From NCBI RefSeq assembly GCF_000246985.2, contig NC_022084.1:2071224-2135223 (forward strand): 64,000 nucleotides of DNA, in the 5' to 3' direction. The DNA is from Thermococcus litoralis DSM 5473 (lineage in GTDB: Archaea > Methanobacteriota_B > Thermococci > Thermococcales > Thermococcaceae). A model generated the notes under the pieces. That model did no database searches and was not told the origin of the DNA. It saw only the letters and a program-made list of their open reading frames with translations. Made by a program: the position numbers and the translations under genes. Shown in pieces: positions 3,578 to 38,949 of the stretch (positions are counted from its first letter, which is position 1; each line of letters starts with the position of its first letter).

Positions 3578-3654
<77 letters not shown>

Positions 3655-37272: not shown

Positions 37273-37350
37273 GGGCCCGTAGCTTAGTCTGGATAGAGCG
37301 TCGCCCTCCGGAGGCGAAGGTCGCGGGTTCAAATCCCGCCGGGCCCGCCA
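37273..37350 (+). tRNA. tRNA-Arg (anticodon CCG)
   Basis: Acceptor GGGCCCG (37273-37279) pairs with CGGGCCC (37340-37346). The anticodon stem TCGCC/GGCGA encloses the loop CTCCGGA, giving anticodon CCG (reads CGG). T arm GCGGG/CCCGC around TTCAAAT. Discriminator G 37347 and encoded CCA 37348-37350. The acceptor arm is the same as in the other tRNA-Arg at 3578. Confidence 0.95.
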
Positions 37351-37354
37351 TAAC

Positions 37355-37376
37355 AAACTTCGCCTACGCGAAGTTT
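37355..37376 (+). terminator. Perfect 9-bp hairpin just after tRNA-Arg(CCG)
   Basis: AAACTTCGC and GCGAAGTTT around the four-base loop CTAC, starting 5 bases after the CCA of the tRNA. It may help end or process the tRNA transcript, or be one end of an inserted element. Confidence 0.5.
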
Positions 37377-37479
37377 GATCAAGGTTCGTGGTTCTTATCG
37401 AATTTTCTGTTCTATGAGTGTTTTTATGTTCTAAAGTTTGTTGAGGATGGAATTCTAGAGGTGTTGGCATTTTAGGAAT

Positions 37480-37526
37480 GAGTTTCCAACTTCGACGCCC
37501 TATGGGCGTGGATATAAAGGAAACTC
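37480..37526. repeat. Two-part stem-loop, possibly a transposon-end relic
   Basis: Outer stem GAGTTTCC (37480-37487) with GGAAACTC (37519-37526), inner stem ACGCCC/GGGCGT around TAT (37495-37509). A short subterminal GC hairpin of this kind recalls the ends of IS200/IS605-type elements, but no transposase or TnpB gene is near, so this is only a suggestion. Confidence 0.45.
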
Positions 37527-37570
37527 TTGGTTAGAATTGCCAGAAAAAGGAGAATTTAATTCTACAGGCG

Positions 37571-37619
37571 GGTTCTTGCAGAAAAAACCCTTAACTGAAA
37601 ATAAGGCTCAACAAGAACC
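37571..37619. repeat. Two-part stem-loop
   Basis: Outer stem GGTTCTTG (37571-37578) with CAAGAACC (37612-37619), inner stem CCTTA/TAAGG (37589-37606). No gene or T-run follows at once. Purpose unknown. Confidence 0.45.
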
Positions 37620-37806
37620 ACAGACTTTATTATTTTCATTAATGATTATTTCAAGGGCTGTTGTTCCGTCCAAGAATTAGGGAGTTTCTTCTTTTTTAAG
37701 AAAGTTTTGAACTTGAGCCCCCCCATAGAGTTACAGCGATAAAGAATTTGGGAATAATCCCCCACAGAATAAGAATATAAAAATAAGAAGAACGTGATTT
37801 GGAAAT

Positions 37807-38949
37807 TCAAGAAGCTTCAAAAAACATGTCTTGTCTTTGCCTCCTTGGATGTTTCATTTCTTTGATATTTACCCTTGCAGTCCTTTCAATGTCCCTCAGC
37901 TTGGGGGATTCCCATGGAGCCACAAAGGTTACGGCTTTTCCTTTCTTGCCTTCTCTTCCGGTTCTGCCAATTCTATGAACATAAGCCTCCGGATTCTGAG
38001 GGACTGAATAGTTTATTACATGCGTTAAGCCCTTGACGTCTAACCCTCTTGCCGCAACATCCGTCGCAACCAAGATTTTAGTCTTGCCCCTTCTAAAACG
38101 CTCCAAAATCCTTTCTCTCCCCTTTTGAAGGATATCCCCGTTCAAAGCCTCTGCTTTGTACCCTTTAGCCTTAAGCCTAGCTGCCAGTTCTCTTGTCTCC
38201 TTTTTTGTCTGGCAGAAAACTATCCCGTAAAAGTCCTCGTTATCAAGAATCCTGCACAAAAGCTTAAACTTGTTGTTTGGGCGCACTTCAAAATAGCACT
38301 GTTCAACCTGCTCTGGGGCGAGACTTTTTTCTTGGACTCTTATGACCTCATAATCTTTTAAATACCTCCTTGCCAAGCGAAGGATCTCCCTTGGAATGGT
38401 AGCAGAAAACATCAGGACCCTTTTCTCTTCATTTGTATACCTCAAAATTCTCTCAATATCTTCTATAAAGCCCATATCCAGCATTCTGTCGGCTTCATCC
38501 AGTATAAAGTAGCTCACACCGCTAAGTGAAAGTGTGCCTCTCTCTATGTGATCTATTACCCTTCCAGGAGTGCCAACAACTATGTGGACACCTTTCCTTA
38601 GGCTTTTAATTTGAGGCCCTATAGGCTGGCCTCCATAGACTGGAAGAACATAGATTCTCTTTTTTCCTCTCAAGGATCTTATTTCATCCGCAACCTGGAT
38701 TGCAAGCTCCCTTGTTGGAGTTATAACTATCGCCTGCACATCCTTTATATCCTCCTCTATGAGCTCTATCAACGGAAGGGCAAACGCGGCGGTTTTACCT
38801 GTTCCAGTTTGTGATTGCCCAATTATATCTTTATTCCCACCTAGAAGTCTTGGAATGACTTCTCGCTGGATATCGGTTGGTCTTTTGAATCCTTTTCTCC
38901 GTATGGCATTTAAACTGCTTTCTGATAGTCCTAACTTTTCAAAACTCAT
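37807..38949 (-). CDS. deaD: DEAD-box ATP-dependent RNA helicase
   Basis: Unwinds RNA duplexes. Complete set of motifs: Q motif (GFKRPTDIQ), AQTGTGKTAAF-type motif I (SQTGTGKTAAF near 41-51), TPTRELA, DEAD box VLDEADRML near 150, SAT, then VATDVAARGLD and HRIGRTGREGKKG in the second RecA domain, with a short basic tail. At 380 aa it is a minimal helicase. A similar T. kodakarensis helicase is cold-induced. A TATA box near 39070-39076 would give this gene a leader of roughly 95 bases. Confidence 0.93.
   Translation of the reverse strand: MSFEKLGLSESSLNAIRRKGFKRPTDIQREVIPRLLGGNKDIIGQSQTGTGKTAAFALPLIELIEEDIKDVQAIVITPTRELAIQVADEIRSLRGKKRIYVLPVYGGQPIGPQIKSLRKGVHIVVGTPGRVIDHIERGTLSLSGVSYFILDEADRMLDMGFIEDIERILRYTNEEKRVLMFSATIPREILRLARRYLKDYEVIRVQEKSLAPEQVEQCYFEVRPNNKFKLLCRILDNEDFYGIVFCQTKKETRELAARLKAKGYKAEALNGDILQKGRERILERFRRGKTKILVATDVAARGLDVKGLTHVINYSVPQNPEAYVHRIGRTGREGKKGKAVTFVAPWESPKLRDIERTARVNIKEMKHPRRQRQDMFFEAS

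Follow-up and report, generated by a model that had tools for sequence, protein, structure and literature searches.

Noncoding repeat units behind tRNA and other stable-RNA genes of Thermococcaceae, with a worn copy behind tRNA-Arg(CCG) of Thermococcus litoralis

Several described systems resemble the repeats that we report here. MITEs are short, noncoding and multicopy, with inverted-repeat ends and no enzyme of their own, and REP/BIME sequences with RAYT are extragenic palindromes that are clustered and lie 3’ of genes. Integron cassette arrays, with their attC sites, place differing units with imperfect palindromes behind one fixed site. Ty3 and the Dictyostelium TRE elements insert a few bases from tRNA genes of any identity. 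Finally, archaeal integrative plasmids and viruses use the tRNA 3’ side as a target in Thermococcales, and these carry integrases and have attachment sites inside the tRNA gene.

The units that we describe are nearest in kind to MITE- or REP-like repeats, from which their RNA-end address and mixed arrays set them apart. Unlike MITEs, they have hairpin caps, are addressed to RNA 3’ ends and form mixed tandem arrays, and we saw neither a target duplication at tRNA ends nor, in the cluster loci of three genomes, an autonomous partner. Unlike REP/BIME sequences, which are short hairpins, they measure 240–290 nt and have a tRNA address, and most of their carriers lack a Y1 transposase. They differ from integron arrays in being noncoding and in having many target sites per genome, and from Ty3 and TRE in being archaeal, noncoding and placed right behind the 3’ end; they are not known to have a reverse transcriptase. 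Whereas the integrative plasmids and viruses bring integrases and recombine inside the tRNA gene, the units are noncoding, about 290 nt long and start behind it.

No description of these repeats was found in searches of the open-access literature, nor in the consulted portions of PMC5495485, PMC4247193, PMC12713403, PMC8371274 and PMC2718504. The last of these, the T. gammatolerans genome paper, reports that insertion sequences and repeats make up a relatively small fraction in Thermococcus, a picture that contrasts with the arrays present at 16, 17 and 18 RNA loci in the three genomes mapped here.

The worn unit behind tRNA-Arg(CCG)

The window is a stretch of 64,000 nucleotides from the genome of Thermococcus litoralis DSM 5473 (2,215,172 bases, one contig). 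Within it, the tRNA-Arg(CCG) gene (37273–37350, plus strand, with the tRNA end at 37350) is separated by 456 bases from a DEAD-box helicase gene on the minus strand, which ends at 37807. The interval holds just short ORFs (47, 54 and 81 aa), the 81-aa one running antisense through tRNA-Arg(CCG), and an Rfam search of it gave no match at the gathering score and, below that score, chance-level matches only, besides the tRNA. These ORF and Rfam checks confirm that the stretch is free of genes, as an earlier sequence-only reading had it.

We identified this stretch as a worn copy of unit A, a noncoding unit of about 290 nt whose inverted-repeat ends are capped by hairpins. Units A and B were defined from a cleaner relative (locus L034), where the two alternate in tandem. 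A third unit, C, is visible in array junctions, and at least two sister units (B and C) form arrays with A. The units are about 290 (A), 250–280 (B) and 240 nt (C) long, and, hairpins included, the inverted repeats that form their ends span about 40 bp. The subterminal repeat reads GTGGTTC, GTGATTC or GTAGCTC according to subfamily and is nearly always matched at both ends, while units internal to an array are often without the 5’ arm of the first hairpin.

The window copy occupies 37354–37655 on the plus strand, as judged from a full-length alignment with 20 other A copies; its right boundary is approximate. It begins 3 nt behind the CCA of the tRNA with the left terminal hairpin, CAAACTTCGC-CTAC-GCGAAGTTTG (37354–37377, plus strand; 10 bp, −13.9 kcal/mol in the fold of 37353–37380), followed by the left subterminal inverted repeat ATCAAGGTTCGTGGTTCTT (37378–37396, plus strand). 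The central stem-loop (37465–37541, plus strand; −34.6 kcal/mol, 37449–37542) contains a nested stem at 37480–37526 with the apex ACGCCC-TAT-GGGCGT at 37495–37509, and its inner stems are kept with compensatory changes in other copies. A third stem-loop (37571–37619, plus strand; −13.2 kcal/mol, 37566–37620) is particular to the window copy: it is formed with the right inverted repeat of the unit, which can alternatively pair with the left one. The copy closes with the right subterminal inverted repeat CAAGAACCACAGACTTTAT (37612–37630, plus strand) and a decayed right terminal hairpin (37631–37655, plus strand), placed by the window row of the single-subfamily alignment A1 described below.

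Folding of the whole stretch gave z = −3.5 for the plus and −5.3 for the minus strand, and none of 100 shuffles was as good on either strand. The sequence-only reading had listed three separate inverted repeats; the three stem-loops are indeed present, but they are parts of one larger palindromic unit and not separate features.

Behind the A copy, the segment 37656–37731 (no strand assigned) matches neither A nor B and may be the remnant of a second unit. The remaining bases, 37732–37806 (no strand assigned), are an old flank of the helicase gene that is common to two relatives, G002 and G004 (87–91%). In both of these the window’s tRNA is followed by a B unit and then a truncated A, whose end stands directly before the same helicase flank.

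A search for further copies, which had been set as a check on the suspected insertion at a tRNA 3’ side, bore that suspicion out. The window copy (37353–37528) is 70–72% identical to copies in its own genome, with 72% for 37353–37509; these copies lie behind tRNA-Val(TAC) and in an array behind tRNA-Val(GAC). The tRNA-Val(CAC) array holds a partial match, and further matches were found in relatives. No unit lies behind the other tRNA gene in the window, Arg(TCT), at 3578–3654.

Distribution and genomic address

Unit A matches 73 of 94 Thermococcaceae genomes (E ≤ 0.001). By genus group, it was found in 7/13 genomes of g1, the window’s genus (6/13 being without a match), in 3/3 of g2, 0/9 of g3, 57/61 of g4, 5/7 of g5 and 1/1 of g6. 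A 17-base end pattern, allowing up to two mismatches, occurred 44 times in G034 and 40 times in G036, compared with 4 and 3 matches of the reversed control; in eight g3 genomes it gave 1 to 4 matches, and its reversed control 1 to 6. Among 84,980 species, a 28-base end pattern was present in 41 stretches, all titled Thermococcus, Thermococcaceae or Thermococcales. The same pattern was absent from viral contigs, and BLAST of plasmids and phages returned no copies. In one draft genome, G008, several contigs start or stop in or near repeats (L037, L040, L119). Given these breaks, draft assemblies may under-report the repeats.

We next consider where the units sit. The survey of clusters covered every end match in G036 and G034, in 17 and 19 regions, respectively, and 20 regions plus the Pab160 locus in G037, where about three groups of end matches near 1.910, 1.921 and 1.935 Mb were left out. 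In these three genomes 48 of 59 clusters start at a tRNA or a tRNA 3’ fragment (G036 16/18, G034 15/20, G037 17/21). The first marker of such clusters lies 14–21 nt from the RNA end, and the stem base of the first hairpin falls 0–5 nt behind the CCA, with extra junction bases that vary in length. By chance, about 0.03 of the 59 clusters would be expected there (25-nt target windows and 46 tRNAs per genome, the number given in a table of PMC2718504).

The other 11 clusters do not begin at a tRNA. Two follow the H/ACA RNA Pab160, two come after the stop codon of a gene of the cbf5 type (TruB, PUA and DKCLD domains), and two (L240, L285) are preceded by a GC-rich segment that contains a TATA-like box. 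One more is the distal part of a tRNA-Lys array (L232), one is 138 nt from a tRNA (L295), and three (L222, L235 and the first cluster of L225) have no recognised RNA neighbour. At Pab160, units are found at the same offset in 3 of 29 readable loci, the other 26 being empty (30 of the listed Pab160 places were taken and L274 was left out). As the distance is the same for RNA genes that are unrelated to one another, the simplest reading is that the address is the end of an RNA gene.

Some of these neighbourhoods have features of their own. At L233, L300, L036 and L113–L116, in two genera, units or their remnants come directly after the stop codon of a pseudouridine synthase gene of the cbf5 type; the identity of the gene comes from Pfam at L233 and from the same C-terminal DNA at the other loci. 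The GC-rich segments (L240:3603–3740 and L285:3372–3510, both minus strand) end exactly at the array start, have no Rfam match and are possibly an unlisted small RNA gene. At L211, L213, L228 and L241 the arrays follow the sort of tRNA 3’ fragment that integration of a plasmid or virus leaves behind, and it seems that they either travelled with the cut end of the tRNA or remained there. Near tRNA-His in G036, a 194-aa ORF without a Pfam match (L225:3547–4131) lies between parts of an array.

Empty sites and turnover

In two relatives, G009 and G011, the helicase stop lies 16–17 nt behind the window’s tRNA and no element is present, compared with 456 nt in the window. A similar comparison is possible at Pab160, where one worn unit and its flank are common to L255 and L256 (92.7%, 738 aligned bases), and where L256 carries about 770 further bases of units between Pab160 and the worn unit. 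These extra units fit growth at the RNA side, although loss in L255 fits too.

The close relatives G034 and G037 share 14 array-bearing tRNAs. At 10 of these the similarity stops no more than 113 nt behind the RNA, while at the other four (Met, Ile, Leu-gag, Lys-ttt) the first unit still aligns, and the flanking DNA is alike in the two genomes despite the differences between arrays. At Gly-ccc and Leu-caa, G037 has an additional proximal unit, which we did not take as proof: the B copies compared are 74–77% alike and the flanks about 95–98%. We saw no age gradient along arrays, since units farther from the tRNA show no lower identity to those elsewhere in the genome. Growth strictly at the RNA side is therefore no more than a possibility, and copies could also be exchanged by gene conversion. 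Chromosome inversions have been placed next to tRNA genes (PMC5495485), and the arrays mark fast-changing sites beside such genes.

Conserved fold and origin of the units

To describe the fold of unit A, we kept 56 of 65 extracted copies, by length and redundancy. Set A2 comprises 29 of the 56, non-redundant, plus the window copy (30 rows), and set A1 comprises 20 copies of one subfamily plus the window copy. The structure tested on A2 consists of the terminal hairpins, the subterminal inverted repeat and two central stems. In this set 88.3% of cells are paired, and there are 43 cells with double changes, compared with 14.8 ± 4.3 in shuffled alignments (0/500 as many) and 4–30 in slid versions of the structure; the score was likewise remarkable against shuffles. 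The number of pairs with double changes (8 versus 5.8 shuffled; 45/500) and of pair types (24 versus 26.6 shuffled) was unremarkable. In A1, RNAalifold found nearly no covariation (1/38 pairs). The fold of unit A is conserved with compensatory changes in the broader set, with a weaker result in the single subfamily, and the paired changes in relatives for which the sequence-only reading had suggested looking are seen in the alignment of 30 copies. From these alignments a structured RNA remains a candidate; a DNA-binding protein, too, can preserve inverted repeats, at the level of the DNA. An H/ACA reading of the third hairpin, an idea by eye, was dropped because no model matched.

A tract of four or more T residues lies within 70 nt behind 43 of 51 element-bearing tRNAs, mostly at 44–47, and behind 6 of 30 other tRNAs at the same loci. 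Its position suggests that the unit may supply a terminator.

We consider it probable that the stretch behind tRNA-Arg(CCG) represents, in decayed form, one member of a Thermococcaceae family of noncoding, non-autonomous mobile repeats whose address is the 3’ end of stable-RNA genes. A mobile element without genes of its own is favoured because the units are multicopy, have empty sites, turn over and join the RNA gene at a precise junction. A recombinase or transposase acting in trans would recognise the terminal hairpins, which cap units and junctions and are its likely substrates, and would attach a unit where the RNA gene ends; an array would then arise through repeated joining. Joining may take place within the hairpin, since the missing 5’ arm of internal units looks as if it did. 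If the T-rich tract near +45 makes the unit a terminator, insertion would do little harm. We found no mobilising enzyme, nor did we see, in the cluster loci of G034, G036 and G037, an autonomous copy with the same ends. No target-site duplication was seen at tRNA ends; a short segment is repeated at one internal junction of L256. We put forward more tentatively, as a possibility short of even odds, that this is a new kind of prokaryotic mobile repeat, with the 3’ end of any stable-RNA gene as its address, be it the end of the RNA or of the transcription unit, and with integron-like arrays of folded noncoding units.

The units could instead belong to the host, as 3’ modules (trailers, terminators or small RNAs) spread by homologous recombination or gene conversion without a transposition system. 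Their place right behind RNA genes, the conserved fold and, in most of them, the constant distance of the T-rich tract would all agree with this. We nevertheless regard it as unlikely, because some relatives have no units at all by the unit A search (all nine g3 genomes and six of the 13 of the window’s genus), RNA genes that carry units in one genome have none in its relatives, the kind and order of units differ between close relatives, and units also stand behind Pab160 and cbf5.

Quite improbable, in our judgment, is a descent from integrative elements that target tRNA genes with SSV-type tyrosine recombinases, in which case the terminal hairpins would be sites of a plasmid or virus integrase. 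Elements that integrate into tRNA genes are known from Thermococcales (PMC5495485, PMC2718504 and PMC8371274), and arrays do follow integration-type fragments at the four loci named above. Yet plasmid, phage and viral collections hold no copies, and the targets include many different tRNAs, Pab160 and cbf5. We give very little credence to mobility at the RNA level, by which the element RNA would be joined or copied at the 3’ end of a stable RNA before entering the genome. This would explain the RNA-end address, and the offset is the same behind tRNA and H/ACA RNA without a common DNA motif having been seen; however, the junction contains extra bases of variable length.

Weakest of all, and barely credible, is the IS200/IS605-type link that the sequence-only reading had drawn from the ACGCCC-TAT-GGGCGT hairpin, with REP-like or IS-derived repeats moved by a Y1 transposase: the repeats are hairpin-capped, noncoding and extragenic and PF01797 is found in 25/94 genomes of the family, but this hairpin is the middle of unit A and not an end, the units have long inverted-repeat ends where IS200/IS605 elements are recognised by ends without them, and the distribution of PF01797, which has no match in the element-rich G034, G037, G040, G042, G044 and G046 and is present in element-free genomes such as G003 and G005, largely refutes a Y1 transposase as the mobiliser unless it was lost after the repeats had spread. 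The window genome has one Y1 transposase gene (G000:C1:725483–725848), which contains an in-frame TAA.
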